64,000 bases of DNA from contig QNGE01001730.1 of NCBI GenBank assembly GCA_008508345.1, forward strand, positions 55,660 to 119,659, read 5' to 3'. Shown piece by piece: positions 5,626-32,916 of the stretch. The notes below the pieces were generated by a model that was not told the DNA's origin, did no database searches, and saw only the letters and a list, made by a program, of their open reading frames with translations. This stretch comes from Paragonimus westermani (lineage: Eukaryota > Platyhelminthes > Trematoda > Plagiorchiida > Troglotrematidae). Position 1 is the first letter of the stretch, and each line of letters opens with the position of its first letter. Both the position numbers and the translations under genes were made by a program.

Positions 5626-5917
5626 GCGTACTCTGTGTGGACCAACGGCGCGCTGCTTGCCGCCTTCGATATTCCTACGGGTGACCCCCAAGGATCAGTA
5701 CTAGGTTCTTTGTTAATCCAATTGCGACTTACCAACCGTCAGCTAGATCCCCTTGCGCATCTATGTGGACGATACTAAGGTGTAATGTACTCTACCTTTC
5801 TCCCAAAGACTGCTCTTCTATGGCGGGATCTCGACGCAGTGCATCGGTGATCGGTAGAGAGCATTCTCTCGTTTGACACTACTAATTCGGAAATTATGCA
5901 TGCGCTGTATGAAACTA
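5626..5917 (+). pseudogene. CR1/Jockey-like LINE reverse transcriptase, piece 2 (motifs B and C)
   Basis: AAFDIPTGDPQGSVLG ends at 5706, giving the motif B signature QGSVLG at 5689-5706. After a frame change IYVDDTKV follows at 5759-5782, which is motif C with the YxDD aspartates intact. Then LWRDLDAVH and ILSFDTTNSEIMHALYETSK, the region where such RTs carry a WS.EN..LPLN..K segment. Sequence similarity ends near 5917 at a palindrome. Stops and at least two frame changes are present. Confidence 0.65.
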
Positions 5918-5919
5918 GC

Positions 5920-5959
5920 AAACTCTAACGGATTAGTGGCCACCAATCCATTAGAGTTT
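5920..5959. repeat. Near-perfect 40-bp palindrome with no loop
   Basis: The 20 bases at 5920-5939 are the reverse complement of 5940-5959 with two mismatches. The palindrome sits at the point where LINE piece 2 ends, so it may mark an insertion boundary. Confidence 0.8.
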
Positions 5960-5961
5960 GG

Positions 5962-6030
5962 TAGTATCACACTGGAACACTCGGCCGTTCCCTGAGGGAT
6001 ATTTGAGTGTTTCAAAAGGAACACTCACCG
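5962..6030. repeat. Hairpin-rich block, left flank of the DUF4806-like gene
   Basis: Contains GGAACACTC twice, GTTCCCTGAG once and GAGTGTTTC once, arranged so that short stems can form (GAGTGTTTC, AAAA loop, GGAACACTC). The same words build the 85-bp inverted-repeat element at 8238-8322, on the other side of the DUF4806-like gene. Confidence 0.5.
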
Positions 6031-6723
6031 AACTTTCTTGTGTCTAATTTCTGTGTACCATTTCGAAGGTGTAAATGCTAATGAAAATTATACACATCAT
6101 TTTTGCTATTCGAAAACGTGTAAGCAGACCTACACCACTCATATGAATTTTGTTTCATCGAACTACTTCGCATTAATGGTGACTGCGCCAGAGGACTAAT
6201 TTCAGCTATCTTGCTCAACTCGTTACGTGGAAAATGAGCAGTAACGAGTCGAAAAGGCCGAGGGGTTGTTCGCGTGCTAATTTTTGCCGTCTGGCTAAAC
6301 TAGCGCGCCAGAAGCGTCCAGGAGGCAACTGCAAGACACCCACGGCCTTTGTGGTGGAGTAGGAACAACTGTGGACCGCGACTGTTGGATGACAACGGAA
6401 TTTCGAGAATTCCTATTGTGCATCGATCCAGTGGCGTTGAAATGAGTGGTAGATGACAAAATCTACGAAAACTTCCTAAACTTTTCAGTTTCTGTATACC
6501 TGCTTTGCTGCCCAAAGTGGTGTCTGCACTATGTGGATTTCGTGGAGTGGCAATGCACTCGTTGGTGATGCAAAGGACTGCTTCTACCAGTAAAGGACAA
6601 TTTTGTATTTTACCCAGCAATGCACACTTGAAAATTTGTCCGTAAAATAAATCTTACCTAATTTCATTCTGTTTCCTTGACCAACAACACCATACTTGCG
6701 CTAATGAACACTTTCATTTCCAG
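6031..6723. other. Upstream region of the DUF4806-like gene; nothing recognised
   Basis: A 106-codon minus-strand frame (6300-6620) has no recognisable domain. The last bases before 6724 form a plausible 3' splice site (pyrimidine-rich, then CAG), so an upstream exon may exist, but I could not identify one. Confidence 0.3.
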
Positions 6724-7975
6724 ATGTATGATGTTGTTGAATTCGATGATGAAAGCGTGGGGATAGTGTACAGGTCGTGGATTACGCAGCCAGGGTTTGC
6801 GCTCTGGCCGGGATTGCCATCTACGAAGCATCACAAGTTGCTCTTGAGTGGGATGACAGCACCCTTTGGTTGAAAGCTGTTCAAAACCGAGATGCATCGC
6901 GCAACAGGTACGCGCTTTTGTTTTTCCTAACATTTTCCAGATGACCTGCAATTGATTTACAGGTACCAACGATTACTGGAACAGTTATCAGACATACCAT
7001 CGTCTGACGCCACAGATATAATGAATCGCGGTGGCAAACGTAAGAGGTACAGTGAAGTCGCCTTGAGTCGCACTTGCAGACAACCTATCGTTCGTTCTGA
7101 CTTCACGTATGGAGTTCAAGATAAACGGAAACCTCCAGTGTACGGCGTCGACACCGACTATTCTCGACCATCACCACACTTGCAGAATATGTCGCACGCA
7201 TCTCCATCTCAAACACGATGGACATTGGGATCACTGGAGAACCTGCCCTCTTTCTCCAGCCTTATTGTTTCCAGGTATGACATTGGTAAAATGTCATTCA
7301 GTACGCATTTAGCTCCACCATCGTTAATCCAACGACAGCACACAGTGGAGCAGTGTGCAAAAACGACGCTGCCAAAGAAGTGAGAGAGCTGAAAGGTAAG
7401 TCCGTTGAATGCAAATAATCACCGTGTTCACCAGGTGTAATGGAGAACTTAGTTCTCCAAAACATCCGAATCCGCGAGGAGTTGCATGCCCTACGGCTGG
7501 AAGTAAATGCATTGCGATTCCAACATGCAGCTCGCAGGACGTCATCCACTTCCCCTTGTGATTCCCCATGCAGTCCATAGGGGACATGCGACTGCTGAAT
7601 ATGAAGTTGGGAGAAGAAGAATTATATACCCAGCTGGTATGTTCAAATTTTCCTATTCACAGTACGCGGGTGACCTTTCTTAGCAATGTCGGCGGCACAT
7701 CCATAGGTGAATGCACTCGTAATGTTATGAGAACATTATTGACGGATAAAGTGGCGAAACCATAAACTGGAGAGGAGTAAACAATCTCGTCTCCATTGCC
7801 TCCTCACCGTTGGCCGCAGCCATCGTTGGTATGTTCGATAACCGAAAGTCTTCACTTGTTTCATGTAAAATCCATCATGAAGAAGGCTTACCCCGGCTGA
7901 TCGCACGCAGACTTCAGGGGAACCATTCAAAGGTGGATTCAGAGGGCGAGATTGTGTGCAACCAAAAAAGCTGAC
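6724..7975 (+). pseudogene. DUF4806-domain-like gene, broken
   Basis: Pieces in the order seen in DUF4806 proteins. (1) VVEFDDESVGIVYRSWI and then LWPGLPSTK, the N-terminal V-F-W-P module (6724-6820). (2) After a frame change, WLKAVQNRDASRN ending at donor 6907, spliced over a 55-bp intron to YQRLLEQLSDIPSSDATD at 6963. (3) A basic KRKR patch. (4) EVRELK ending at 7395, then a 39-bp GT-AG intron, then a coiled-coil-like ENLVLQNIRIREELHALRL from 7435. (5) FLSNVGGTSIGECTRNV and LLTDKVAK, then NWRG in another frame, and finally IQRWIQRARL. The function of the domain is unknown. Frame changes near 6830, 7300, 7560 and 7755 mark it as a pseudogene, unless tiny introns that I missed account for some of them. 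Confidence 0.55.
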
Positions 7976-8237
7976 GATCTCGTCACCGACGTCTTTACAC
8001 TGTGATTCTAATTATGTATTCGTCAAAGTTATACAAATATTGCTGTAAAAAATTGCGCTCAATATAACGTGTGATTATCTGTGTGCCTTCTACATAGTTC
8101 CTCGTGAATTGGAACATTGCATCGTCGTTATTGTGCGAGATTAGAATTACTTTTAACGCTACTGAGCTCCGTTGAGAAATAGAGAATGAGCAGCATGTGA
8201 TAAGATCGCTTAATGGGGCTGCGCGCATTTTACCCCC
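7976..8237. other. Unassigned spacer
   Basis: AT-rich and without recognisable features. It separates the DUF4806-like gene from the inverted-repeat element at 8238. Confidence 0.3.
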
Positions 8238-8322
8238 ACCGTTCCCTGAGTGTTCCCAAAGTTTCTAGTTAGAACACTCAGGAATCACTCGGGCAACGCC
8301 CAGGGAACACTCAGGGAACGGT
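8238..8322. repeat. 85-bp element with perfect 20-bp inverted ends
   Basis: Positions 8238-8257 are the exact reverse complement of 8303-8322. Inside are a second stem (GAGTGTTC with GAACACTC) and GGGC AAC GCCC, so the whole block can fold into a long hairpin. Related words occur at 5962-6030. It could be a tiny MITE or foldback, or the end of a larger element. Confidence 0.75.
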
Positions 8323-9285
8323 CGTGCTACTAGGGAGGCAACCGCTTGTCATTGCTTCTCAAGGGAAAGACCTTGAGACTCTACTTTCGGAAAACCTCTG
8401 TCCTAGCGCCAATACGCTGGCATTAGCGAAGAAAGCAACGGGCAGGTTGACGGCGCTTAGCAGATTACCGGGGAAGTTCTTGGAAGAATATTTTTCGCGC
8501 GTCCTTGGCGCTCTGATGAGACTTCTGTAAGAGGCAAAAATACAAGTACGTGCTTCAAGGCCGGCCTAACTAAGCCATATCCGGTTGGTGGAAAACCGAC
8601 TTCCTTTCAACAACATTGTTCAGTTCCCATACACACACCAAAGTAACAAAAAGGTCTGGCGAAAACTCCGCTTCGTTCCCTCTCAGCGGACGTGATCCAG
8701 ACACCCTTGTTTCAAAAGATCTAAGAGTATTGAAAAACCGCACCATTAATGCACCAAGCGAACGGTGCAATACGCATAGTGTAACTGATCTCATCTCATA
8801 AACCCTTCTGGTCCCATCTAGAACTGAACGAAAAAACCTGTTTACCTTTCCTCAGTTAAGACATCAAGCTAAGTGAAGGAGCATTAAAAGAATGTCAGAA
8901 ATGATGAATGTGTGTGATGAGACTCGATTCCGCGTGGTAACACGATTGTTCGCGAAAATATTTACACTACAAAACACCGATACACTAGCCCGTTCGTCCT
9001 CAGCGAAAAGACAACCCTCCGGAGTGGGGAGGCGGTACTGTAGACCCAACTACAAGAACTTCTCCACGGCAACACGCGTATCACGACAATGAAATGCCCC
9101 CTCAAGAAGAACACACCCCTGATTCCAGGGATGAATGTAAGCAAAATGTTGGGGAAAGAATTCTTTTCTTAAGGACCCGTCCTAACTGCCAAAAAAATGG
9201 ACTTGCCATTCTTGGGAATTTCAGTGCCTGCCGATCCCCTCGAAATTCGTTTGCCGATTCTTGCAATGCTTTCATGATCCATAGT
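8323..9285. other. Unassigned sequence between the inverted-repeat element and LINE piece 3
   Basis: Several open frames of 60-82 codons on both strands, none with a recognisable domain or splice context. The segment separates the hairpin block from the resumption of the LINE near 9286. Confidence 0.3.
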
Positions 9286-9598
9286 GGGTTTAGTACAGTG
9301 GACATCATGAAAATCAACCTGGAGAAAGGACTGGGCATCTGACTGTCGGCTAATTTATCCTTCGCGTATCACCATGAGATGGCGGTGGCGAAGAGATTCG
9401 CTGCTCTTAGGATAATTAAGCGCACTTTCCCCCGCATAGACAAGAGGGCGTTTCAAACACTTTACAGGATTATATGAGGCCGCTTCTCAAGTATGCGAAT
9501 CGGGTCGTGTATACGATCATGAATAAAAACATATTAGCTGTTCAGCGCGGCCAGCACGCGGCTACCAAGCTGGTAGCAGGCCTAACGAATGTCACGTG
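9286..9598 (+). pseudogene. CR1/Jockey-like LINE reverse transcriptase, piece 3 (C-terminal)
   Basis: Reads GLGI, then LSANLSFAYHHEMAVAKRF, RIIKRTFPRIDKRAFQTLYR and, after a frame change, MRPLLKYANRVVY, ending with QHAATKLVAGL. This matches the segment after RT motif C in CR1/Jockey proteins (KDLGVW, then R.F, then Y..YVRP.LEY, then VQRRATKLV.GL). It continues, in order and orientation, from piece 2. The homology ends at 9598, where the Penelope-like element begins on the other strand. Confidence 0.65.
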
Positions 9599-10431
9599 AG
9601 TTTTCTGATGGTTGGTAACAGTGTTGGTGTTGTTCGTGGCTCGGGTTGATGGTTTTGGTATTGATATGTTCGCCGAGCTTGGCATTCAGGTTGCAAACGT
9701 TTATCACCAACCAAAGTGACATAATCAGTGCGTGAGTGTTTCATCGCATAGTTTTGAATGTGGCGTTTGCTGAAGTTGGATCGATGCCTGCTCTTATATA
9801 GCAGAGTGGGTTGATTTGCTGGTCTGAATTCTGGTTGGTCGCTTTCTGTCGTGTTTGGCCTGACACACCATTGGTTGATTTTGTCGCAACTGAGCTTTGG
9901 CCTGATGTCCGATCGGTTATTCCCTGGATTCCTTGGGCTGGAGTCTGATTGGCTGCTCTCTCTGTCGTTTGGGCTTCCCAGTAGTTGGGCTTGATGACGT
10001 TCACGTCTCCTCAGATCCTTGATTCGCATTGGTTCATAGATTTTGTCTAGTTCAATGTGTTTGTTCATCGGACCGGTTGACGAGCGCCAAGCTCCCAGAA
10101 ATTCTCTTGCATGTTTGATATTTGCCTGAGTAAGGATTTCTGTGGTGTTCAAGTTGAAGGCATATCTAGTTTCATCCTCGTGGGCGGAGATCAAGGAAAG
10201 TTGATCGTGCCTCTTGATGGCCAGTTCGTGTTCACGCAATCGTGTTGATGATTTTTGTCCGGTTTGGCCGACGTGGTGCTGTCTGTAGTCATGGCATTGG
10301 ATTTTGTAGATAACGTTTCTTCCATCGGCGGGTTTGAATTGTTCTTTTGGTTTTGATAGTATCCTTCTTAGTGTTGCTGTTGGTTTGTGCGCTAGGGTGA
10401 TACCGTGTGTTCTTAGTAGTCTTGCGGTCAT
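9592..10431 (-). CDS. GIY-YIG endonuclease domain of a Penelope-like element
   Basis: An uninterrupted 279-codon frame, unusual in this window. Residues 8-30 (THGITLAHKPTATLRRILSK) match the pre-nuclease linker of Penelope-like proteins. Residues 40-75 hold the nuclease signature: VIYKIQC (GIY position), HHVGQTGQ (YIG position, His for the usual Tyr), then TRLREHE with the conserved Arg. A glutamate in HAREFLGAW fits the later acidic position. After residue 150 the protein becomes Arg/Ser/Asn/Gln-rich with no domain. The nuclease is thought to cut target DNA for insertion. The chosen ATG may not be the original start: the same frame runs back to a stop near 10480, and homology (CTIIHHTSK) begins upstream of it. 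Confidence 0.75.
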   Translation of the reverse strand: MTARLLRTHGITLAHKPTATLRRILSKPKEQFKPADGRNVIYKIQCHDYRQHHVGQTGQKSSTRLREHELAIKRHDQLSLISAHEDETRYAFNLNTTEILTQANIKHAREFLGAWRSSTGPMNKHIELDKIYEPMRIKDLRRRERHQAQLLGSPNDRESSQSDSSPRNPGNNRSDIRPKLSCDKINQWCVRPNTTESDQPEFRPANQPTLLYKSRHRSNFSKRHIQNYAMKHSRTDYVTLVGDKRLQPECQARRTYQYQNHQPEPRTTPTLLPTIRKLT

Positions 10432-10720
10432 TTTTGATGTATGATGTATGATAGTGCAGTTCGTTTTGTTGGTGGCTCAGCGGTGTTGGACTCTCTGTTT
10501 TTCCGTAATAGACTCCGACTGATGAAGTTTCGTGGGTATCCGCTGCAAAGAAATACGCGGTGTAGGTGGCTTTCTTTCTTTTTCCGGAGCTCTGCGGTGA
10601 TGCAGTGTTTCAGCCCGTTTGAACAGAGTTCGAATGCAACTTATTTTATGGCAGACTGGGTGGCTGCTGTGAAAACTAAGGAGTTGTTCCGCGTGTGTTT
10701 CTTTCCGATTAACTGAGGCC
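9592..10720 (-). mobile_element. Penelope-like element, 3' part
   Basis: Minus-strand remnant. Upstream of the open GIY-YIG frame, broken pieces read HRVFLCSGYPRNFI and RTLLKRAETLHHRR (10500-10660), the linker that follows the RT domain in Penelope-like elements. The RT core itself is not visible. The element ends where LINE piece 3 stops, so it probably inserted into that LINE. Confidence 0.7.
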
Positions 10721-10854
10721 TCTAGTGTTCCATCAGGTTTGCGGTTGATTATTTCATCGAGGGACAGCAGTTAGTTGTCGTTCTCCATCTCCATCGTGAA
10801 TTTAATATCGTTGTATTCACTGTAATCGCTAAGAGCGGCGGTACTGTAGCGTTT
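10721..10854. other. Short unassigned stretch before Gypsy-1
   Basis: Probably contains the 5' limit of the Penelope-like copy and the left flank of Gypsy-1. No target-site duplication is evident. Confidence 0.3.
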
Positions 10855-11182
10855 TGTGCAGCATTTTGTACTTCATACTTTTTATTGTTCATTCTTTTCG
10901 CCTTCATCTAACTCACGCGTGCACTGTGGGTTTAAACCATGTTAAGCGATCGACTCCATAATCGATAATAAAAATTGACTTCCGGGATCGTGAGCCGTGC
11001 GTTTTCTCTGCGTTTCGTGTCGTTCGAGTACAGGTTTCGGAATAATTAAATACTAATGGAACCAACCATTTATTCCGACAAACATTTCTTAGGAGCAGCA
11101 CTAAGGGTCGTATCCACTGGAATTTCTAATTCAACGCACCTCCACGAAATATTGTGAATCATTTCCTTTTGTTTTCATCACA
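10855..11182 (+). repeat. Gypsy-1 5' LTR
   Basis: Starts TGTGCAGCATTTTGTAC and ends ATCACA (TG...CA). It aligns along its whole length with 23834-24163, roughly 80% identical by eye with small indels. The divergence suggests an old insertion. Confidence 0.75.
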
Positions 11183-11454
11183 CTTGATATTGTTTGGATC
11201 CACTATATAAACTGGTGAGCCCGGATTTTTTGCCATTTTCTCTTTTGTACATGTGTTTTCTTTTGGTTCCGTAATCTATATGCTCAGAACTCTCAGCATT
11301 TTCCAATGAGTTCTGAATTTGACACTAGTTTATTTTCCGAGAACGCTATTACCCTGAAATTACCTGCATTTTGTACTTCAAGCCTCAGCTTTTGGTTCAC
11401 TCGAGTGAGAGCATTTTTTCGATTTTGTTCGATTGCTTCATAATTCGCCATGCT
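11183..11454 (+). other. Gypsy-1 leader, primer-binding region
   Basis: Carries CTATATAAAC at about 11203 and then GGTGAGCCCGGAT, similar to the sequence I associate with the primer-binding region of CsRN1-type elements. No coding sequence. Confidence 0.4.
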
Positions 11455-12115
11455 TCCTTATATGGCTACACAGTTGCCCACATATATTGCTTCCGAAATG
11501 ATTAATATGCTTGACCCCATGCCAAATGAGTGCCCATAAGATAAACTCAAAGCTGTTGTTTCAAAGCTTACCACGGCGTCAGATGAGGTCAAGCTCCAAC
11601 AATTACTTTCCGGTGTGGAGTTGGGTCACCACACCTCTTCTAAATTGCTTTGTCACGTGAGATACCTGACAGTTGGTTCCATCTCCGGGCAACTGTGGAC
11701 CAAATGCCTCCCGCTCAACACGTCAGTCATTTTGTCAGTACAGGACCCCGACACCCCACTGGAAAACTTAGCAGACAAGGTTCACGAGTGTTTCTTCAAG
11801 CGTTCCATCAATCACGTTCATGATTCTTCTCCTTACGCTGACACCCAAGAAATGCTTGATAACCTCCAACGTAAGTTGATTCAGCTAACATTCACTGTGA
11901 ACAACTTAGCCGGACGCCTCATTAAAGGCCGTAAATTTATTCACACTTGCCCCCGCTCTTGCACGCGACCTCGCATATTTGAGCTGCAAACCTCTGGCAT
12001 CTGTTACTACCACTGACGTTTCGGTGACGACTCCCGAAAATGCAAACGCACATGCGCACATGACAGTCCACGCACTAAGGGCAACACCAATCAGGGAGAA
12101 GACCCGGTCAGCAAG
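11455..12115 (+). pseudogene. Gypsy-1 gag (capsid and zinc knuckle)
   Basis: The first stretch reads MATQLPTYIASEM, with a stop, then DKLKAVVSKLTTASDEVKL, QQLLSGVELG and PDTPLENLADKVHE, the capsid pattern of CsRN1-type gag (LKA.L..RT..SE, LQQLL..EELG, L..LAD). The 133-codon open part spans 11615-12016. Just after its stop, CYYH at the end and FGDDSRKCKRTC in the adjoining frame form the C-x2-H...C-x3-C finger characteristic of this clade. Gag would package the element RNA. One stop near 11537 and a frame change near 12016 inactivate it. Confidence 0.7.
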
Positions 12116-12129
12116 TAATGGCGACAGCT

Positions 12130-12430
12130 GCTGCTGGCCAGCCCGACAGTCGCCTGTTTTTTGTTTAGGACAACTCTACCGTACTTCGGTTCCTTATTGA
12201 AAACGGTGAAGTGGTCGGCGTTATATCCCCAGGTAGAAGTAAACGCGATCTCGAATCCGCATAGTACACCCTACAGGTAGCCAACAATTCCGAAGTCTTG
12301 ACCTACGTCCAACACCCAATTATCAGCATCGATTTTCTCACCAAGTACGGTTTGGCCGTTGACCTCAGCCGCCGGAAACTCGTAGACAGCATCACTACTC
12401 TTTACGTTCAAGATAAAGCCACCGCCATCA
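12130..12430 (+). pseudogene. Gypsy-1 protease, active site lost
   Basis: In the correct order after gag: RLFF near 12148, then LIENGEVVGVISPGR where the aspartic protease should read D-T/S-G, then HPIISIDFLTKYGLAVDLSRRKLVD (12310-12390), equivalent to the IxGxDFL flap-to-C-terminus region. The catalytic Asp-Thr-Gly is absent and several frame changes occur. Confidence 0.6.
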
Positions 12431-12529
12431 ACTCGATCAGGCTTCGAAAGGCTTAACCGGAAGCCAACCAGTATACAGTCTTGTTGAAACGTGATGTTGT
12501 CTATCATTTCATCACCAAGGGACCATTCA

Positions 12530-13360
12530 ACTTCGCAAGTTCGCGTCGACTGCCTCCGGAGAAGCTGAAGATCACCGAGGCGGAATTTACGGAAATGCTA
12601 CGTTTAGGAATTATCCATCCCTAAAAGAGCCCATTGTCATCGCCTTTGCGCCTGGTCCCCAAGAAGACTGCGAGAGACTGGAGGCCATGCAGTGACTACC
12701 GAGCACTGAGCAACGTTACCATGCTTTACCGTTATCGGATTCTGCATATTCATGACTTTTCCACTAGCCTTTCCGGGAAAGATATCTCATAAAATAAATT
12801 TAATCAAGGCATATCATCAAATTCCTGTGGATGCCGATGACATCGCTCACAACCCCGTTTGGCTTCTTCGAATTTTTTGTATGCTTTCTGGCCTCAGAAA
12901 CGCCGCCCAAACGTTCCAACGCTTCATAGCCCTAGGTTTCCGCGGAATAGACCTTGTGTTTGCTTACAGTGACGACATGCTGGTTGCCAGCAACAATGCA
13001 CAGAGGCATCTCTCTCGTCTGAAGTCTGTCTTTGAACGTTTAACTCACCATGGTGTCACCATCAACACGACCTAATGACTCTTTGGTGCTTCCTCCATTG
13101 GCCTTCTCGGTCATCGCATCGACGGAGACGGCATCAGGCCATTGAAGGATCATCCATTGCCTCAGTCTACTGAAGGCCTCAGTCGATTTTTGGGATTGTC
13201 AATTAATATTGTCGCTTTATCCCCAACTGCTCTGACATGCTGGAGCCCCTGATTTATCTGCCGCAGAATAACCCCAAAAAGTTTGCCTCACCCAAGAGGC
13301 CACTGCTGCTTTCACATCCGTCAAGCAGACCCTGGAAAATGCCACATCTCTCGGCTATCT
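12530..13360 (+). pseudogene. Gypsy-1 reverse transcriptase
   Basis: RPPEKLKITEAEF and EMLRLGII at about 12550-12620, then [11 protein letters not shown], then KINLIKAYHQIPVDADD (motif A region, 12790-12845), LRNAAQTFQRF (12890) and AYSDDMLVASN at 12962 (YxDD with Ser). The RT-RNase H linker follows: LTQEATAAFTSVKQTLENA and then TSLGYL, ending near 13360. There the protein is cut off exactly where RNase H should start; it resumes as integrase at 21064. RNase H and the integrase zinc finger are missing. Frame changes and stops are numerous. Confidence 0.7.
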
Positions 13361-13361
13361 G

Positions 13362-13595
13362 GGTCATCATCATCATGTACAGCAATACACCAGTGGTTCA
13401 CGCTAATGCTCCGCTGCCACACAATCATGAAGAAAAAGAAAACCCTATATAGAACGGAAGAAGGAGAAAAGAAAAGGACGGGAATGGACCTAACTACTGA
13501 AAATAGCTAAATCTATATTCAAACATTCAACATCAAGGTGCCTGCGCCTTGGAAACAAACAACTGAGCTGCAAGTGACAGGGAGGCGTCATCAGA
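13362..13595 (-). mobile_element. RTE 3' tail, copy in Gypsy-1
   Basis: Reverse complement of the RTE 3' end seen at 2500-2745, beginning with a CATCATCATCATG run (13367-13379) that is the ATG-type repeat at the 3' end. The GCCACACAATCATGAAG and AACTACTGAAAATAGCTAAATC words are shared with 58565-59200 and 62965-63545. It abuts the broken end of the Gypsy-1 RT, so it probably inserted there. Confidence 0.65.
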
Positions 13596-13993
13596 GTGTT
13601 CCCTACAGAAGCATAGTTTGTTGTCCCTACAGCGCGTGTTCCTACTCCCCCTCAGCTGGCTTCCTCTCTGCCCCATCTGGCCAACACTGTGCACCCTGTG
13701 ATCCAATCAGGTGTCTCTCTGATTTGCTAGTCTTCATTGGTTTTCACTTGAAATAAATGGGCAGTACATGTCGGGAGGACGCCTTCTTCCGAACTAAAAG
13801 CATGAGGGCAATTGTTGTTCATTTGCCGATTTTATTTGAGGATCATTTAGGGGGTCTGGTCTCCACGGGAGTTCCAAGTATGGATGCGGTTGGAGCGAAA
13901 ATTGGGCGCTTCAAAGTTCCATCGGGGTCTTCATAAGGCATCCGATCCACCAAAACCGCTTTCGGTGACCATAAGAGATGGGTGTACGACATA
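13596..13993. other. Unassigned sequence before Gypsy-4
   Basis: No recognised domain. It may be further RTE sequence or flank into which Gypsy-4 inserted. Confidence 0.3.
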
Positions 13994-14001
13994 ATACACA
14001 A

Positions 14002-14180
14002 TGTTTAACGTTCGTAACCCAAGCACAATAGAGTCTACCTCACACAAAAAGAGAAAAGTCACAAGGCAACGAGGAACGTGTATTAACACAACACATATAC
14101 CGAAGGAGATCCAGGTCACGCCGTGTCCTTATCCATATATATATTTGGGACCCCACGGTCCGGAAACAAACCACAAATCA
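14002..14180 (-). repeat. Gypsy-4 3' LTR (proposed limits)
   Basis: On the minus strand starts TGATTTGTGG just after GAAAACGAGG (a possible polypurine tract) and ends GTTAAACA. A TATATATATGG box lies inside. It is repeated at 19931-20109 with very few differences. Confidence 0.55.
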
Positions 14181-14195
14181 AAAGTTGCCTCGTTT

Positions 14196-14963
14196 TCACT
14201 GACTGCTGACCTCGAGTTCTGGTTGGTCATCTTCCTCAGCTCCGTGCATAGATGCGGCCAGCCCGCCTGTTCGAGGACCTGAAAGGGAGCAGAAGGGAGT
14301 GTATGTGGTCAAACAAGATGGCGGCACACTACAAGCTATTACACTACTCCCTCCTGTCGAAATCACTGGCCGCAGCGCTTCTGACAGTCCTCCTTCTGGC
14401 GGTATACTACACTCCTCAGCTACTTCCAAGTCGTTTCCATTAGTCGGCCGATCTCGTCCTGCAGTATCTCGCTTCAACCGATTGAAGTGTACTATCCCGA
14501 ACCCAGACCGGTCGTTGTTGGCTTCACGTATGGCACAGGTGGATTAGGAAATAATCTCATGCACAACATATGGTCCCTTCCATTCGCGGAACGATTTTCT
14601 GGAAACTCCGATCTCCGACGCTTCCGCACGTAGCCAGACTTCATTACCCGGTTCCAGGGGGCTCCCATGCGCCTTCTTATCATAATAATCCTTTCGCCTC
14701 TGCCGGGCCGTTCGCAGGTGTTCACGCGCTAAGGTATATGCCTCCGTCCATCCGTCACGTAATTGGATGAAGTAATCGGAAATCAACAGTTTGTCTGGGG
14801 GCAACCTAGAAACAAGCAAATCAGATGGCAGCTTCATTTTCCTCCTTGTCGACAGATAAATTTGGAATTGTTCTGTACAGGAATGGGTGCTAGCCCGGTA
14901 TGCAAGCAGGCACTGAGGAACGGCGGCGTCCCACGATCTGGTGTTTTCTGAATTCACGAACAT
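14196..14963 (-). pseudogene. Gypsy-4 integrase C-terminus and pol tail
   Basis: The frame at 14963-14544 reads LLAYRASTHSCTEQ, then LRTARQRRKDYYDKKAHG, the F-x-P-G-type EPGNEVWLR and EWKGPYVVHEI, the C-terminal domain pattern of Gypsy integrases. A frame change then leads to VHFNRLKRDTAG, the classic end-of-pol motif, and a Ser/Pro/Glu-rich tail stopping at 14196. The segment up to 14741 is duplicated at 20125-20670. Confidence 0.7.
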
Positions 14964-15041
14964 CTTGAGGGGAGATTTTAACGTGCGATTGATGCGTTCA
15001 ACCTCACCGTTGCCATGTGGGTGATAGGCACTCGTCCTCGT

Positions 15042-15356
15042 TTATCTTATGCCTAATATCCTACAACGTTCATGCATCAACGCACTTTCGAAATTTGGTC
15101 CTGGATCAGAATGCGGCTGGGTCGGAGCACCCCAGTGCGAAATCCAATGGTCAAAAATGAATTTGGTGGCTGTTACACCATCTACTGTTGGGAATGGCAC
15201 AGCTTCGTACCACTTGCTGAAATGGTCTACCATCACTAGGATGCATCGGTTTCCCAGGCTAGTATACGGTAGTGGTCCAACAATATCGACTTTTACTAAA
15301 TCATTCGGGCATCCCGTCAACATACTCCGTGACTGTGCTGAGGCATCCGCGCCCAC
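15042..15356 (-). pseudogene. Gypsy-4 integrase catalytic core
   Basis: Reads NDLVKVDIVGPLPYTSLG, then CILVMVDHFSKWYEAVP and HWGAPTQPHSDPGPNFES. These are the first catalytic Asp (VDIVG) and the second (SDPGPNFES), both present. The frame ends before the third acidic residue, with the C-terminus resuming at 14963. It is separated from the zinc-binding region by the non-coding stretch 15357-15728. Confidence 0.7.
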
Positions 15357-15728
15357 CGTTGCCGGACGTCACCTGTTCACATGTGCACGCACGGACGTCA
15401 CCTGTTCACATGTGCACGCGTGTGTGTTCCTCTCTCTCCAACCCCGGCCCCGGACGAACCAGTACTGTTACCCAAACAATCGATTGGGTGTCTGCTTGTC
15501 TTATCTGTCTCGTTACTATTATGATGTGATTCGCTCGTGTTCGATAAAGCTACGTGCTATTGCCGTCACGTGTTTTCACCCCACTCTGGGCCGACTGCGT
15601 GTCAGGGCTCGCAGTTCAACGTGGTTCTAAGTTGTGACAGGTGCGCACTGTCGTCTCTTAGGGCCTCCAATTTGTTCAAACAGGCTACAATTACTGCACA
15701 CATTTCTGACGTCCCTTTGCTGGTGCGG
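15357..15728. other. Non-coding insert splitting the integrase zinc finger
   Basis: The zinc-finger frame stops at RQRLW (15729), where related proteins continue with the Cys pair of the HHCC finger. About 370 bp without coding homology follow before the core at 15356. The same insert follows the second copy at 16384-16720, so it was present before the duplication. Confidence 0.5.
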
Positions 15729-16330
15729 TCACCATAAACGCTGTCTTGCAGCAGCTTCCAACTTTTTCCGGCCCGCACGCCCCAACTTCTCATAAAGCTC
15801 CTCCAAGACCACACGAACCGCTGATTCGGGGACTACACTCAGGGCATCATACTCGGGGCCGTATTGATAGTATAGAACACCATCGGGTATATAGAGATGG
15901 TTCCACAACGACCACAAACAGCGCGTCTCCCAACTGCATCCTGCCATCCCTTCGGTGGTCGGACGTGGACCACCCTCTTTTAATCGGTTGTATATGATTT
16001 GTAGATCAGCATCGTTGTTTTGGGTGGTTGCCCATCGATCACTTTCTTTCGGTCTGACAGTAAACATCGAAGAGTAACTAGCCGATCATGACGGGCAATC
16101 TCCGTGACTGCGATTCGGTTGTCTAGACAACGCATCAGCGTTTCTGTGACGCAATCTAGGCCTGTGTTTGCATTCAAAGCCATACTCTCGTGGAAAGTCT
16201 TACCAACGAGCAACCTTTTTCTCTGGGTCTTCGAAATTTTCCAACCACTGAAGAGATGAACGGTCCGTTTGCACCAAAAAACGTCTCCCTAGGAGATAAT
16301 GGTGGAAGTGTTTGATAAGCTGTACCAATG
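15729..16330 (-). pseudogene. Gypsy-4 RNase H end and integrase zinc-finger start, copy 1
   Basis: Two frames: GLDCVTETLMRCLDNR and CLLSDRKKVIDG (linker), then RPKESDRWATTQNNDADLQ, LYIPDGVLYYQYG and LEELYEKLGRAGRKKLEAAARQR. The last corresponds to the start of the H-H-C-C zinc-binding module. Identical to 16721-17322. The right edge (16330) joins unrelated bases, so this copy lacks the RNase H body. Confidence 0.65.
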
Positions 16331-16720
16331 CCAGCAAGCCAAACTAAATGGGGAAGGAATGTAGCATCAGCGCCCACCGTTGCCGGACGTCACCTGTTCA
16401 CATGTGCACGCGTGTGTGTTCCTCTCTCTCCAACCCCGGCCCCGGACGAACCAGTACTGTTACCCAAACAATCGATTGGGTGTCTGCTTGTCTTATCTGT
16501 CTCGTTACTATTATGATGTGATTCGCTCGTGTTCGATAAAGCTACGTGCTATTGCCGTCACGTGTTTTCACCCCACTCTGGGCCGACTGCGTGTCAGGGC
16601 TCGCAGTTCAACGTGGTTCTAAGTTGTGACAGGTGCGCACTGTCGTCTCTTAGGGCCTCCAATTTGTTCAAACAGGCTACAATTACTGCACACATTTCTG
16701 ACGTCCCTTTGCTGGTGCGG

Positions 16721-17506
16721 TCACCATAAACGCTGTCTTGCAGCAGCTTCCAACTTTTTCCGGCCCGCACGCCCCAACTTCTCATAAAGCTCCTCCAAGA
16801 CCACACGAACCGCTGATTCGGGGACTACACTCAGGGCATCATACTCGGGGCCGTATTGATAGTATAGAACACCATCGGGTATATAGAGATGGTTCCACAA
16901 CGACCACAAACAGCGCGTCTCCCAACTGCATCCTGCCATCCCTTCGGTGGTCGGACGTGGACCACCCTCTTTTAATCGGTTGTATATGATTTGTAGATCA
17001 GCATCGTTGTTTTGGGTGGTTGCCCATCGATCACTTTCTTTCGGTCTGACAGTAAACATCGAAGAGTAACTAGCCGATCATGACGGGCAATCTCCGTGAC
17101 TGCGATTCGGTTGTCTAGACAACGCATCAGCGTTTCTGTGACGCAATCTAGGCCTGTGTTTGCATTCAAAGCCATACTCTCGTGGAAAGTCTTACCAACG
17201 AGCAACCTTTTTCTCTGGGTCTTCGAAATTTTCCAACCACTGAAGAGATGAACGGTCCGTTTGCACCAAAAAACGTCTCCCTAGGAGATAATGGTGGAAG
17301 TGTTTGATAAGCTGTACCAATGATAGCATTTCCTTCCTAGTAGTACAATAATTCCTTTCACTATCGTTGAGTCTTCTGTTCCCATAAGCAATGACGCGCT
17401 CTACATCGTTCACATCTAACTGGGGCAGGGCAGCCCTTATGGCAGCTCCAATAGCCTCCGTGTCTAGAATAAACATTTTCGCGCCTGCCTTGGTATCCGG
17501 AAGCAC
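16721..17506 (-). pseudogene. Gypsy-4 RNase H and integrase zinc-finger start, copy 2
   Basis: From 17506: ILDTEAIGAAIRAALPQL (the D-x2-x5-GA RNase H start, with Asp present), RRLNDSERNYCTTRKEML (the conserved E-x-NY region), HFHHYLLGRRFLVQTDRSS (the TDH-like motif, here TDR) and LENFEDPEKKVARW. A frame change then leads to NADALSR-type sequence near 17110 and the zinc-finger start at 17059-16721. This copy is continuous with the RT and is the ancestral one of the pair. Confidence 0.7.
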
Positions 17507-17529
17507 TAGAATAGGGGCAGTGCACAGTA

Positions 17530-18464
17530 CATCTTTTAGCCGGTTAAACTACTGTTGGCACTTCTCAGACCACATAAAGCAAGGTCCTTTCTCAGTCATT
17601 GTCGTTAAGGGTTTAGCCATATGAGAAAATCCGGGAACAAACCGTTGACAATAAGAAGCCAACCCGAGAAAACTGTGGACCTCGTCAGCACTCACAGGAG
17701 TTGGTCATTCTTTCGCCTTACGCACATTTTGGAGATCACAACCCACACCGGCTATGGAGATGAAGTGTCCTAGGTATTTCACTTCAGTCTGCACGAAAGA
17801 ACATTTCGTAGGATTTAACCTCAATCCCGCCTCATTTGGTTTGGAGAGGACGTTGGATAAATTACACAAGTGTTCATCATTAGATCGTCCATGGATGTGC
17901 ACATCGTCCAAATAGACCAGGCACTGTCTAAAGATTAGATCACTCAGCACCTGTTGCATTAACCTCTGGAAGGTGGCCGGCGCATTCGCTAATCCGAATG
18001 GCATGGTTTTGAATTCATACGGACCGGAGGGAATTACAAATGCGGTTTTCATGCGATCATTGGTCTCTACTTCCACTTGCCCATAACCAGACTCCAAATC
18101 CAGGGTTCTTAATCATTCAGCTCCCGAAACAGCATCAATGTTTTCATCGATCCATGGTAGTGGAAACAAATCTTTTTCAGTCACCGCATTTAACTGACGG
18201 TATTCAACATATAATCTTAGAGAACCAAACTTTTTCTTAACTAACACTACCGGAGACGCCCATGGGGATGTTCACGGTCGGATGACATACCCTTTCCAAC
18301 ATTTCCGCCAACAGTTTTTGCACCTGCTCTCGGAAATGGACTGGTGGGCGACGAGCCGCTTGCCGAATCAGGCGTGCCCCTCCTGTATCAACACTATGTC
18401 GCACGACATGGGTGCGCCCAGGCAGCAGTCCTTCCCACCAGAAAGTCGCTCGGTGCTTCTCCAT
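17530..18464 (-). pseudogene. Gypsy-4 reverse transcriptase
   Basis: From 18464, frames read EKHRATFWW..., PVHFREQVQKLLAEML and MGVSGSVS (the RT N-terminus), KKFGSLRLYVEYRQLNAVT, LESGYGQVEVETND (motif A region, Asp of the usual LDL-S-GY lost), FVIPSGPYEFKTMPFGLANA, FQRLMQQVL, QCLVYLDDVHIH (motif C, YLDD intact, near 17905) and LRLNPTKCSFVQTEVKYLGH. The region 17705-17530 adds the thumb segment (FLGLASYCQRFVPGFS). At least three stops or frame changes. Confidence 0.75.
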
Positions 18465-18756
18465 TAATTCCCGTACTTTGTGTTATATGTGCTGGAAGGT
18501 GGGAAATGATAACCTTGATAATTTTTTGCCACTCGGATTCGAGGTGCGCCTATTCACTGGCTGGGTGCTGTCTTGTGGGAGCTCCCACAAGACCCGACAA
18601 TGTTTTGTACGCAGGTACCAAAGGAAAACGCTCACCAAACATACATACCGCACGATCAGACAGGTCCAGGACACATCCGGTGGAGACTGAACAATCACTT
18701 CCCAAAATAACGTGAAATGGTAATTTAGATGCACCCATGAAGCTCAGCGTGCAAAC

Positions 18757-18963
18757 CTAATTCCCTGCCCACACTATTCCGCCAACACAAGCCAGGATAT
18801 GTAATGGTTGTCCACTAACAGCTAGAACCTGGCCGATAGGCCCCGCAACAACTTTGAGCTGGCAGGTAGTATACGTCTCTTTATCAATCAGGTTAAATAT
18901 AGACCCGGAATTCAGCAAGCGATCAGAGTCGCGACCACTAATTTGTGCTTTCAAAACGTACAC
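18757..18963 (-). pseudogene. Gypsy-4 protease
   Basis: Reads ISGRDSDRLLNSGSIFNLID, matching the aspartic protease active site LLDSGS with Asp changed to Asn, then GPIGQVLAVSGQPLHI. It precedes the RT in the right order. The loss of the catalytic Asp would abolish activity. Confidence 0.6.
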
Positions 18964-18969
18964 AGTGTA

Positions 18970-19650
18970 GCAACCCTATTCTTATATTTAATAACAGGAG
19001 GGATAAGCGACTGACACACCGGAGACTTATCAACATACGCACGCTTCCCAGCGGATAATGGGCACCAACGTGCCAGGTGCCCATGCCGGCCCCAAGCGAA
19101 GCAACTCCGCCAGTCGGACCGCCCGTTCATTGGAACTTCCGCTCTTAGCTGGCCTTGTGCACAATCTTCGCCCCTTCTGTAAGCGCTTCCGCGGGCCAAC
19201 AGACCCTGCCCTCGATTAGCGAGAGGGCCCTGCGTCACACAAGTGAACTGTTTATCAGCAGGCTCCACACGTCCCGCCGAGTCTAACGATTCAGCCAACT
19301 ATTTAGCCTTGGTCAAGTTTTTAGGGGAGCGGAGAAGGAACTCACGCTGACACTGCGACCGTCAAATCCCTTCCAAAAACCTTTCTAAAATACAGCTTTT
19401 CCTCTGCTCTTGCGTCTCTTCTACAAAAACCATTCGCGCTGGTCTCCTCAATTGCTGAATATAATCCATTAATCTTTCCGTACTGCGTTGGCGTCTCTCA
19501 TGAAACTCCCTCCGATATTCAAATGCAGGGCGAAGACCTGCGATCCTTCGTTGTACAAAGTGAAATAGGATCTCAAGATTCTCTGGGGTGTCAAAATCAA
19601 CCATTTTTCCGTATGCCTCACGGGAAAGCAAGGTCAACACAGCATCCACA
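18970..19650 (-). pseudogene. Gypsy-4 gag with altered zinc knuckle
   Basis: The frame 19649-19362 reads FEYRREFHERRQRSTERLMD, YIQQLRRPARM and CILERFLEGI, the capsid C-terminal pattern of Gypsy gag. After stops, 19298-18951 ends with CFAWGRHGHLARWCP, a CX2CX4HX4C knuckle whose second Cys is Trp. Gag functions in RNA packaging; this copy is broken by stops near 19362 and 19300. Confidence 0.65.
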
Positions 19651-19930
19651 TGCCGGTCTGGGAGAAGTGTTTCACGTAGCGGTGCACGTGAACTTCCCAG
19701 AAGTGAAAGCCTTCCCCAATAATGTATCCCTTCGGTGCCAGAAGTACACGCTCCTCTCGTACGTGACCTGCATGATCAGTGTCTGAAATACACACTTCCT
19801 AAGCCTCTTAAATAAGTTTTGGCATTTTTCCGGTACCTGTTGAACTGAGCATTATTCGTAAATTCGTCCCATTGTGGGTGTCAAAAACGTAATATTCCAA
19901 TGGGTCGGTCACAAGCGAAAAGATACACAA
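19651..19930. other. Gypsy-4 leader region
   Basis: About 280 bp between the proposed 5' LTR and the gag remnant on the minus strand. No clear primer-binding site recognised. Confidence 0.3.
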
Positions 19931-20109
19931 TTTTTAACGTTCGTAACCAAAGCACAATAGAGTCTACCTCACACAAAAAGAGAAAAGTCACAAGGCAACG
20001 AGGAACGTGTATTAACACAACACATATACCGAAGGAGATCCAGGTCACGCCGTGTCCTTATCCATATATATATTTGGGACCCCACGGTCCGGAAACAAAC
20101 CACAAATCA
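19931..20109 (-). repeat. Gypsy-4 5' LTR (shared with an upstream truncated element)
   Basis: Near-identical to 14002-14180 at offset 5929. The final CA of the 3' copy is AA here. Confidence 0.5.
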
Positions 20110-20670
20110 AAAGTTGCCTCGTTTTCACTGACTGCTGACCTCGAGTTCTGGTTGGTCATCTTCCTCAGCTCCGTGCATAGATGCGGCCAGCCCGCCTGTT
20201 CGAGGACCTGAAAGGGAGCAGAAGGGAGTGTATGTGGTCAAACAAGATGGCGGCACACTACAAGCTATTACACTACTCCCTCCTGTCGAAATCACTGGCC
20301 GCAGCGCTTCTGACAGTCCTCCTTCTGGCGGTATACTACACTCCTCAGCTACTTCCAAGTCGTTTCCATTAGTCGGCCGATCTCGTCCTGCAGTATCTCG
20401 CTTCAACCGATTGAAGTGTACTATCCCGAACCCAGACCGGTCGTTGTTGGCTTCACGTATGGCACAGGTGGATTAGGAAATAATCTCATGCACAACATAT
20501 GGTCCCTTCCATTCGCGGAACGATTTTCTGGAAACTCCGATCTCCGACGCTTCCGCACGTAGCCAGACTTCATTACCCGGTTCCAGGGGGCTCCCATGCG
20601 CCTTCTTATCATAATAATCCTTTCGCCTCTGCCGGGCCGTTCGCAGGTGTTCACGCGCTAAGGTATATGC
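20110..20670 (-). pseudogene. Second copy of Gypsy-4 pol 3' end
   Basis: Same sequence as 14181-14741: LRTARQRRKDYYDKKAHG, EPGNEVWLR, EWKGPYVVHEI and the VHFNRLKRD tail. Upstream (20671 on) the homology stops abruptly. A pol 3' end directly upstream of a 5' LTR is not part of a normal element; it suggests two copies sharing one LTR, one of them truncated. Confidence 0.7.
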
Positions 20671-21063
20671 TTTCACCAATCGGTGACGCTTAACCAACTG
20701 TATGTTCCTGACCTACGTTTGTATATTGCGTTCTTGGGTGTTCTGCAGTATGCTTCTTCGGTGGCGTGAGTTATCCTCGTGCACATAACGGAAATGGTAA
20801 GGATACCGTTCAGAAATAACGCATTCTGCAAACCGATCCAGCGAGTTCGCTCGCAATTTTTTTCTGTGGTTAGCCTTAATTCGCGCCCGCCGCGCGCGGA
20901 GCTCTCACCATTTTTCCACTTGGGAACATGCGCACAAACATACGTGAATGGGCCAAACACTGACCGTCCTGTCAGCGAAGTGAGGTGCGCTGACACACCA
21001 TCACCACACCTGGCACTTTCAGTGTACCTGACGCCAGTTTCAAACAAGTTCATGTTGACACAG
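20671..21063. other. Unassigned stretch between Gypsy-4 and the Gypsy-1 integrase
   Basis: A long minus-strand open frame (20673-21281) runs across here and antisense to the integrase, with no recognised domain. Contains the right edge of whatever opened Gypsy-1. Confidence 0.3.
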
Positions 21064-21668
21064 TAGCCCCCCTTCCACCCCTGAATGGCTTTACTCATTT
21101 GTTGTCTTGTATTGATTGTTTCATACGCTGGCCACAAGCAACGCCCATACGCGACACCCCGGCCGAGAACATCGCGTGGACGTTCGTGGAAACCTGGATA
21201 TCCTCCTCCGGCGTACCTGATTTCATCACTATTGATCGCGGTTCTCCGTTCATATCCACGCTGTTTGGTGAGCTGAGGCACTTACTCGGCTGTGAAAAAC
21301 TTCCAAACAACCGTGTACCACGCAGTGTCGAGTGGCGAAGTGGAAAGATGCCATCGTCAACCTAAAGCTACCATCTTTGCTACGGCATCTGACCCCATCT
21401 GGTCGAAAAGCTTGCCATTCATTTTGCTTGGCATCCGTAACACTATCAAGGAAGACTTTGGCTGCATTCCTGTTGAACTTGTCTATGGCAGCATCTTACG
21501 CCTGCCAGGCAAAATGACTACGGATTCTAGAACCACTGTTGAGATTGACCCAGCACCTTACGTTACACGTCTGAAACCGTTCATACGCAAGTCGAAGCCC
21601 GCCACCGACGAGGAACAGTCCGATGCAGACCCAAATGCATGAAGATCTGCTTACCATGCTAGCACACA
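21064..21668 (+). pseudogene. Gypsy-1 integrase core (continuation of 12530-13360)
   Basis: Reads LNGFTHLLSCIDCFIRWPQA, TPIRDTPAENIAWTFVETW, SSGVPDFITIDRGSPFISTL (second catalytic Asp in IDRG) and, after a frame change at 21290, TTVYHAVSSGEVERCHRQ (third acidic position, VER) and LPFILLGIRNTIKEDFGCIP, then PVELVYGSILRLPG. Near 21645 MHEDLLTM matches the start of the C-terminal domain, which then breaks at about 21668 and resumes at 23436. Same strand and same lineage as Gypsy-1 gag and RT. Confidence 0.75.
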
Positions 21669-22055
21669 TTAGGGATTATTTAGGGATAAGTTACGGCAGT
21701 TTCGGAATGAACTACGTTCGGAATTTGATGGGTGTGGGGTTAAGGGGCGAATTACGTCAATCTTGGGATAGATAACGGCCGCATTTTGGTGGCCAACGCG
21801 GAAGCAGCAAAACTGAACCTGAATAAAATGCTGCGGGATTAATTCTGCTATCATTACCCGTCTCTATAAATGTAATCATATGAGAACCGAGGAGAAGAAC
21901 TTTCACATATACGAAATCGTTCATTGTACGCATAGTTGTTTTTTGCTTAAGTACACTCCGACGCACAACGCGTTCAGTTTCTTCATATTTGAATTTCATC
22001 AGGTTTATCCTGACAGGTTCCTACGTCTTCTACCATTTCGTTACTTCGTTTGAAG
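21669..22055. other. Left part of a 1.76-kb insertion in the Gypsy-1 integrase
   Basis: No domain recognised. It begins where the integrase C-terminus is interrupted. Starts with TTAGGGATTATTTAGGGATA, but no matching terminus was found near 23430. Confidence 0.3.
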
Positions 22056-22850
22056 ATGTCTAACAATCAGCAATCTGAAGAAAATACGAGTACGTATTAA
22101 CGATTATATGTTGCTCTCAGTGGAATATAGAATTACTCGTTAATCGTTCCACTATTCATTGTCACGTCCGCTGTGCTGTGGAAGGTTTCCACGCTAGCGT
22201 TTCTAATGCTGGACTGGAGCTCTTTGAGCACCATGCACCCACTTCGTTAGAAGGTGGTTGTGAATGCTTCCTTTATGTAGCCGACAATGGTAGATGTTCC
22301 CGAGCAAGCAGAAAAATGTGAATTGTTGCAGGAAACTCGTGATGCTCAGGACGCTCAGTCTGTTATCAAACAATCTTGTCGACCGGCTTCGAGAATGGGT
22401 TGTTTCAAGTAGTACTCCAAGAATGCAAGTCAGTCGACTGTTGCAAATTTTTAGAGAAAGTCTGCCTGAACTACCGTCCGATACAAGAACAGTTGTCGAA
22501 TAATTGCAGGTTTCTCCGGTGGATAAGATGAGCGTGACATACGTGCTCACTTGTTTCCCCTCCAAACTGTTGCACAGTTCAAGGACCTGGAGTACGACTT
22601 GAGAAAGCAGCCATACAGGAAGTTTGTGGTAACTTAATATGAACTATAGTAACTGTTCTGGGTAGATTACTTGCATGGATTGAGTATCCCCCCTCCCCAC
22701 GGCAACTTGTTCGTCGGTGCATGAGGGAAGCCAAAGGCACCGAATTGGCGTTGCACATGACTTATGCGGGTGGAAAAGGGAAGATAGCATTTAGGTATTT
22801 CACGTTGCGACACGCTATTGAAGGTGAATGTAAGCGTGATGAAAGTCTCA
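22056..22850 (+). pseudogene. Second DUF4806-like gene fragment
   Basis: The frame at 22294-22503 ends with LVDRLREWVVSSSTPRMQVS and RLLQIFRESLPELPSDTRTV, a module (LL.IL...LP.DARTLL) that I associate with the N-terminus of DUF4806-type and related transposon-linked proteins. At 22575-22630 another frame reads FKDLEYDLRKQPYRKFV. After a likely intron, RQLVRRCMREAKGTELALHM, TYAGGKGKIAFRYFTLRHAI (22685-22815) fits the C-terminal DUF4806 pattern (VRR...ELAL...GKxGKxAF...AI). Function unknown. Exon limits could not be made consistent, so intact versus broken is open. Confidence 0.45.
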
Positions 22851-23435
22851 AATGAACGCGGAAGTGCTACCGTCGAAGCATCTCTACTCAGAGACCAAGA
22901 GAGGAGACGTGAGCACGTGGATAAAAGTTTGGTTTTACAACGCCCTAGACAGAGAAGGAGTAAGAGGAACAAGAAGAGAAAGAAAGCAGGTGAGGCAAGC
23001 ATGTTACCATGTGCCTCGTTGATATTTGTGAAAACGAGATGAATAATTTGCGTTGATTACCCATAGACAACAGCATCGTGTATTCTGGCGCTTACGTGTG
23101 CGTGACGAATGCTTTCGTGCATAACGATGACTATGAACTCCATAGATTGGTGAATAGTTTAATATTGTATCGTAAATATTGGCATATATCTTTAACACAC
23201 CTCCAGGCTGTGCGTGATATATATATATATTTATATACAACACCTCACCCACCACTCTCGGGTTGTTTAAGCTAAACTGTCGACCCAATGTCAATATTTC
23301 TAACACTATACTCCGAGTTCTCTTTCCGTGCCTACGTTGGTGGCAATCGTCAATGTTTATCGCATTTCTTATGTTGCTTCATTGACATCTACTTCTCTTT
23401 TCCCGTCCCTTGGTGTTTATCCGTGTCGACGCACG
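22851..23435. other. Right part of the insertion; includes an (AT)n run
   Basis: A Lys/Arg-rich open frame (22818-23042) contains KRNKKRKKAG followed by a GTGAGG donor-like site; it may be a further exon of the DUF4806-like gene. Otherwise nothing recognised. Confidence 0.3.
23215..23240. repeat. AT-rich dinucleotide microsatellite
   Basis: GTGATATATATATATATTTATATAC: about ten AT units with one interruption. Confidence 0.85.
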
Positions 23436-23760
23436 CGGTCTTTTCATCCACCTTGTGATGGTCCGTTTGGAGTGCGTGAAGGCGAAGATGAGTACTGTTC
23501 CATCAACCGTAATGATTCAGTACGCATCGACCGCCTAAAAGCGACCCGTGTAGATTCTTTTTAGATGCCTCCTCCTTATCCGGCCATGGTTACCAATCCA
23601 CCCCATCCAAGTCTTCCGAATAGACCCACTGCACAAACTCTACAAGCAGTTTCAGGATCCATTACACCCGTCGATGACGTACAGCACCTCCATTCCCCTC
23701 CACCACAAACACATCACGGATGACCCTGCAAAATTCCCGTCCGTTCCGCGCGTTACACAG
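23436..23760 (+). pseudogene. Gypsy-1 integrase C-terminal end
   Basis: Reads FHPPCDGPFGVREGEDE and SINRNDSVRIDRLKATRV, the YDGPY-V and V-S-I-D-R-L-K-P signatures that close pol in CsRN1-type elements, followed after a stop by a Pro-rich stretch and NSRPFRALH near 23730. It continues the protein broken at 21668, so 21669-23435 is an insertion in Gypsy-1. Confidence 0.7.
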
Positions 23761-28510: not shown

Positions 28511-28548
28511 CGACGGGTTGCGTTTGCAGTACCCTTCTGGAGGGGGGA

Positions 28549-31723: not shown

Positions 31724-31776
31724 CCGTCAGATGCGCATTACGTGGATAACCACCCCACTGTCTAACGCCCCTCGAC

Positions 31777-31777
31777 N
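31777..31777. other. Single N: assembly junction
   Basis: One undetermined base. Bases from 31778 repeat those from 27410 at a constant offset of 4368, as expected if two overlapping contigs were placed side by side without merging. Confidence 0.9.
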
Positions 31778-32876: not shown

Positions 32877-32916
32877 ATCGACGGGTTGCGTTTGCAGTAC
32901 CCTTCTGGAGGGGGGA

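Follow-up and report, generated by a model that had tools for sequence, protein, structure and literature searches.

A DUF4806 gene as the candidate second gene of TRC-type DNA transposons in the lung fluke Paragonimus westermani

Two genes related to the Pfam family DUF4806 (PF16064) lie in the window, by which we mean the whole 64,000-nucleotide stretch of Paragonimus westermani contig QNGE01001730.1 analyzed here. The original prediction, made from the sequence alone, had described them as two genes, each within a segment that interrupts a retrotransposon reading frame, and had proposed that this rare domain is carried as insertion cargo by a mobile element not yet tied to it. Based upon sequence comparison, both are remnants of cut-and-paste DNA transposons of the TRC type, which are animal relatives of CACTA/EnSpm elements. 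Both copies are dead derivatives, internally deleted and decayed, that have lost most of the transposase. Their features are as follows.

5958-8335, plus strand: copy 1, an internally deleted, decayed TRC/CACTA-type transposon (alignment to family copies; left end aligned with C1153, C6736 and C5070)
5959-5970, plus strand: decayed left terminal inverted repeat (TIR) TGGTAGTATCAC, family sequence CCCTAGTAGCAC (left-end alignment)
6234-6371, plus strand: 5' exon of the element, carrying an in-frame stop (70% identity to P. westermani P0124 at its N-terminus, E 1.5e-15)
6374-6544, plus strand: transposase gene remnant (49% identity to transposase P0012, E 5e-12; L051 transposase, E 1.6e-9)
6724-8002, plus strand: DUF4806 pseudogene, in pieces at 6724-7272, 7308-7397, 7440-7550, 7550-7774 and 7753-7827 and a C-terminal helix to 8002 (tblastn with P0122-P0131; three-frame reading)
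8272-8330, plus strand: sub-terminal repeats resembling CACTCAGGGAA at 11-bp spacing (repeat search; 11 or 22 bp in nine other copies of the family)
8324-8335, plus strand: right TIR GTGCTACTAGGG (pattern scan; right-end alignment)
21653-23402, plus strand: copy 2, an internally deleted transposon of a second TRC family inside Gypsy, right end and right TIR lost (matches to a 4.9-kb element; empty sites)
21654-21665, plus strand: left TIR CCATGCTAGCAC, family sequence CCCTGCTAGCAC (aligned with L051, L044, L043 and L036)
22281-22500, plus strand: transposase N-terminal remnant in two frames, residues 1-74 of open reading frame (ORF) 1 of L051 (72% and 79% identity to the L051 transposase, E 3e-27)
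22484-22491: internal deletion junction (abutting query matches 14-852 and 845-1467, overlap up to 8 bp; L051 coordinates)
22485-22989, plus strand: DUF4806 C-terminal exons with stops (identity to P0121 of 73%, 51% and 47% over three pieces; PF16064, 20.6 bits)

Copy 1 retains the order 5' exon, transposase scrap and DUF4806 gene. Paragonimus proteins align by tblastn to 6733-8002, with P0123 covering 6733-7272 (67%, E 6e-101) and further pieces at 7338-7550, 7550-7774 and 7753-7827, on to 8002. The gene predicted at 6724-7975 is therefore present, but three-frame reading revealed premature stops and frame changes, so it is a pseudogene rather than an intact gene. A first model of exon 1 that included a frame switch was rejected, as P0123 and P0124 show a single frame with a stop; the copy-1 query used for the Pfam scan of the window, the 188-match genome search, the locus survey and the profile search, all reported below, carried one wrong frame switch. 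Using 6100-8350 as a DNA query, the best 40 of 809 candidates comprised the window itself and 39 other copies at 84-87% identity, 34 of which stop at query positions 2198-2243, corresponding to 8297-8342 in the window. One family member, C5070, measures about 4.1 kb from end to end and contains matches to the 5' exon, the transposase and DUF4806.

The region around copy 2 resolves into two repeats that abut at 22484-22491 (best 40 of 457 candidates). The segment 21653-22491 corresponds to the left 0.84 kb, and 22484-23402 to the right part, of one 4.9-kb element, of which the copies in L051 (4850-9748) and L044 (632-5528) are 95.3% identical. Because both abutting repeats belong to this one element, copy 2 is an internal deletion derivative whose right end has been lost, and most of the transposase together with the 5' part of the DUF4806 gene is missing at the junction. 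The P. skrjabini miyazakii protein P0121 aligns in three pieces to 22485-22989 (tblastn), confirming DUF4806 sequence over this part of the gene predicted at 22056-22850. The remainder was misassigned: 21653-22491 is the left end of the element and the transposase N-terminus, and 22056-22484 is thus ruled out as part of the DUF4806 gene.

Insertion of both copies into retrotransposons, as originally proposed, is borne out by empty sites. When the flanks of copy 2 were joined, 40 matches were listed (best 40 of 149 candidates), four of which were the window and the near-identical contig C8112, and all 36 of the others cross the join at 74-78% identity. For copy 1, 45 joined-flank matches were listed, three being the window and C8112; 14 of the other 42 cross the join (65-72% identity) and 28 cover one side only. 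Because joined-flank matches cross the join, copy 2 lies within a Gypsy element and copy 1 within an element resembling a long interspersed nuclear element (LINE). The Gypsy label reflects a Pfam integrase match of 26.2 bits (E 9.6e-6), below the cut-off of 32.6, while the flanks of copy 1 are read as LINE-like from the original prediction and from motifs read by eye. A 33-nt spacerless palindrome (85% complementary) occupies 5907-5972, at the boundary between the LINE-like flank and the left end of copy 1; it may be extra sequence, because the join-crossing matches are shorter than the query. Downstream of copy 2, 23565-23744 resembles a stretch with which the P. westermani gene model P0131 begins before entering TRC sequence, and TRC insertions near Gypsy 3' ends may recur. 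In contig C8112 both copy 2 and the sequence to the right of copy 1 recur at about 100% identity, but the distance between them is about 5.9 kb shorter than in the window (8336-21640); the contig is hence an allele or duplicate with a large indel.

The original prediction suggested a search for shared termini and target-site duplications, and both are present. The TIRs of the copy-1 family (CCCTAGTAGCAC and GTGCTACTAGGG) and of the copy-2 family (CCCTGCTAGCACA and GTGCTAGCAGGG, family left end CCCTGCTAGCAC) have a CCC core, and a third group has a TIR beginning with CCC, CCCAAGCAGCAC. Among eleven left and eleven right ends compared in the copy-1 family, the terminal repeat is found on nine left ends and is absent from C2454 and C3247; the left repeats of C838 and C4672 have one mismatch and were read by eye. 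The target-duplication count leaves out C2454 and C3247, which lack the left repeat (C3247 also has an altered right end), C1153, of which only the left end was compared, and C6278, of which only the right end was compared and which is without the final GGG there. All eight copies with both ends readable have identical 2-bp flanks (C5070 AT, C2348 TA, C273 AG, C2893 GT, C838 GT, C7 TT, C4672 AC and C6736 AT), where a match by chance is expected about once in 16 per copy. In the copy-2 family a 2-bp duplication was found in two of four copies, L051 (TG) and L036 (AA), and not in L044 or L039; in the third group the single copy assessed (L046) had none. The gene thus travels with a mobile element, and that element appears to be a TRC DNA transposon. 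C2348 and C2893 agree perfectly over their first 150 bases despite differing flanks, which suggests that these family members moved recently. Inside the ends, the two families differ in the spacing of their sub-terminal repeats, 11 bp against 20-21 bp.

We collected sixteen stretches of up to 10 kb, which are not a random sample because they were picked by a match to the right part of copy 2, its left part or PF16064. Counting L036 and L037 once, and with L049 duplicating the window, they contain 14 distinct DUF4806 loci, and 12 of these are preceded on the same strand by a transposase match (only 35 aa in L045 and L047). The other two loci, L046 and a truncated second element in L039, lack it. 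L043 and L050 keep the transposase with DUF4806 absent, and L042 has a second, distant transposase match without DUF4806. In the copy-1 family (best 40 of 809 candidates, including the window), an upstream same-strand transposase segment is found in 31 of the 39 other copies, being only partial in C1545, C3247 and C4319; no such segment was seen in C1146, C3616, C1476, C7366, C1246, C6736, C8182 or C1153. The P. westermani model P0131 reads from a stretch resembling the sequence downstream of copy 2 into transposase and then DUF4806 sequence. Both genes are under coding constraint, of similar degree. Mobility of the gene stands, whereas mere cargo does not: DUF4806 looks like the regular second gene of the element. 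In the models P0124 and P0128, from two Paragonimus species, a 5' exon from before or within the transposase is spliced to DUF4806 exons, hinting at TnpA-like alternative splicing. A third TRC-like group (L045, L046 and L047) has ends CCCAAGCAGCACA and GTGCTGCTTGGG and a weak transposase trace.

The transposase of relatives is predicted to adopt a RAG1/Transib-like fold. In an alignment of 16 transposases, D198, C217-x2-C220, H412-x3-H416 and E436 are invariant or nearly so, with the catalytic residues assigned by us from this alignment, and the C(2)C and H(3-4)H motifs fall between the second D and the last E, as stated for EnSpm, Transib and RAG1 in PMC12730594 (partial text). In motifs and predicted fold, the transposase agrees with the CMCT clade (CACTA, Mirage, Chapaev, Transib and RAG1). 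Against Transposase_21 (PF02992, cut-off 28.6 bits), the homologs P0012 and P0070 score 25.7 bits (E 7.5e-6) and 15.4 bits, and L051 ORF1 has no Pfam match. Among viral contigs, the transposase alone gave no pattern matches and its alignment gave 16, none of which was confirmed.

Both window copies match the Pfam model (copy 1, 14.3 bits, E 0.05; copy 2, 20.6 bits, E 5.8e-4), as originally predicted, but neither reaches the 25-bit gathering cut-off. In a scan of eight Paragonimus relatives, P0125 (32.3) and P0129 (30.1) exceed the cut-off, P0122, P0126, P0130 and P0131 match below it, and P0123 and P0124 have no DUF4806 match. Because the window copies fall below a cut-off that P0125 and P0129 exceed, we call them DUF4806-like relics. 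Taken singly, the pieces of L051 ORF2 have no Pfam DUF4806 match. A Pfam search of the own genome found five places above the cut-off, two of them mutually identical, and L045, L046 and L047 account for three of the five. Contrary to the original supposition, the domain is not rare here: the copy-1 protein gave 188 matches from the best 120 of 1640 first-look candidates in the 823-Mb assembly (9701 contigs). A profile search with the DUF4806 genes returned 11 protein relatives, all from P. westermani, P. skrjabini miyazakii or P. heterotremus, and a single-protein search with L051 ORF2 returned one. NCBIfam gave no match for three proteins, and a PDB sequence search gave three hits at chance level. 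In predicted models of relatives the DUF4806 domain carries a BEN DNA-binding fold, and many of the best structural matches were solved as DNA complexes. This prediction, like that of the transposase fold, concerns relatives rather than the window copies. Pan et al. 2023 (as cited in PMC11075544, partial text) described DUF4806 as a subtype of BEN, and gene families with the DUF4806 annotation are reported from zebrafish, Hydra and a beetle (PMC11075544, PMC7642931 and PMC13270666, partial texts).

The sequences themselves show the paired genes, the inverted repeats, the 2-bp duplications of the target, the large number of copies, the empty sites and the coding constraint on both genes. Taken together with the predicted folds, these features lead us to propose that the DUF4806 gene is probably the second gene of the TRC transposon, and its protein a TnpA-like putative binder of transposon ends. 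In this reading the element encodes a DDE-type transposase, followed immediately downstream, in the same orientation, by a protein with DUF4806 in its C-terminal part. This predicted BEN protein would probably bind the regularly spaced sub-terminal repeats that adjoin the inverted repeats and assist the transposase in locating, pairing or controlling the ends, the part that TnpA plays beside TnpD in maize Spm. We infer both that the BEN protein binds these repeats and that transposition requires the putative binder.

The second gene could act in other ways. One is that it is host-derived, a captured BEN protein that steers expression or silencing of the element and takes no part in transposition. 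BEN domains occur in host chromatin and transcription factors, a role also predicted in PMC11075544 (partial text), and TnpA of Spm likewise controls its own promoter (PMC1636069, partial text). Yet the same gene order is found in two diverged families with readable ends and in further groups, with similar constraint on both genes; because of this shared order and constraint, a long-standing part of the element fits better than a recent capture, and we regard the host-derived regulator as unlikely. We give equally little credence to a DUF4806 protein that works through RNA or protein contacts, with the arrays bound by the transposase alone or by host proteins. RAG1-fold transposases have DNA-binding parts of their own, and tandem duplication alone could produce regular array spacing, but the predicted BEN fold with its many DNA-complex matches speaks against this reading, as do the arrays, whose spacing in two families is close to one or two turns of the helix. 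That these are ordinary host genes among repeats, copied by segmental duplication, is scarcely credible and already contradicted: DUF4806 is annotated as a gene family in other animals and the window has the near-identical contig C8112, but the copies have common TIRs and 2-bp duplications amid unrelated flanks, and there are empty sites for both window copies.

Animal TRC transposons and DUF4806 as a BEN domain are both already known. The elements described here share several traits with SmTRC1 and its animal TRC relatives (DeMarco et al. 2006, PMC1636069, partial text): CCC-core inverted repeats (the Tribolium end begins CCCTAGTAGCACCG, its first 12 bases being those of the copy-1 family), 2-bp duplications (7 of 14 SmTRC1 copies), a CACTA-related transposase, length (4.5-5.2 kb in Schistosoma and Tribolium), copies with internal deletions, and insertion in long terminal repeat retroelements. 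SmTRC1 also has two tandem ORFs in one transcript (clone B4), likened there to TnpD and TnpA of Spm. In contrast to the DUF4806/BEN protein proposed here, its second ORF (PrA) is given no domain in that partial text, and protein outside Transposase_21 is called not detectably conserved. Maize Spm/En has the same two-protein layout (TnpD transposase and TnpA), but is a plant element that ends in CACTA. Its TnpA sites lie in sub-terminal repeats, and we know of no report of TnpA as a BEN protein. TNPD interacts with TNPA and stabilizes its DNA binding (PMC1636069).

The BEN subtype of PMC11075544 shares the Pfam domain and BEN fold, but is described there for host genes. Literature searches on DUF4806, BEN and CACTA/EnSpm, with Repbase outside their scope, found no link between TRC elements and DUF4806/BEN, and nothing on CACTA elements in Paragonimus. 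To our knowledge the DUF4806 BEN subtype has no transposon link. RAG1/RAG2, ProtoRAG and Transib share the RAG1-like transposase fold and the C(2)C and H(3-4)H motifs, and RAG also the two-gene layout; however, the partner here would be a DUF4806/BEN protein with 2-bp duplications, whereas the RAG partner is the kelch protein RAG2 and RAG/Transib duplications are 5 bp. The word BEN is absent from PMC12730594.

Our reading would assign a home and a candidate job to a widespread domain whose function is unknown, as the second, putatively DNA-binding protein of animal CACTA-type transposons, and would supply a candidate for what the unexplained second ORF of SmTRC1 encodes. It is also a warning for annotation, as DUF4806 gene expansions may be mobile-element copies. 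More tentatively, and with some doubt on our part, DUF4806 may at root be a family of transposons, in which a BEN-fold protein partners RAG1-like TRC transposases across the animals and reads end repeats that are in phase with the helix; the lineage-specific expansions in Hydra, zebrafish and a beetle would then be TRC copies or domesticated descendants. If so, it would join RAG1-RAG2 as a second example of a RAG1-like recombinase of two proteins that feeds host regulators.

Elsewhere in the window, the ORF at 9592-10476 (minus strand) has only a weak, unrelated Pfam match, and looks to us like the GIY-YIG end of a Penelope-like element. Identical ORF sets about 4.37 kb apart occupy 27201-35854, the second containing one N (31777), and are possibly an assembly duplication.

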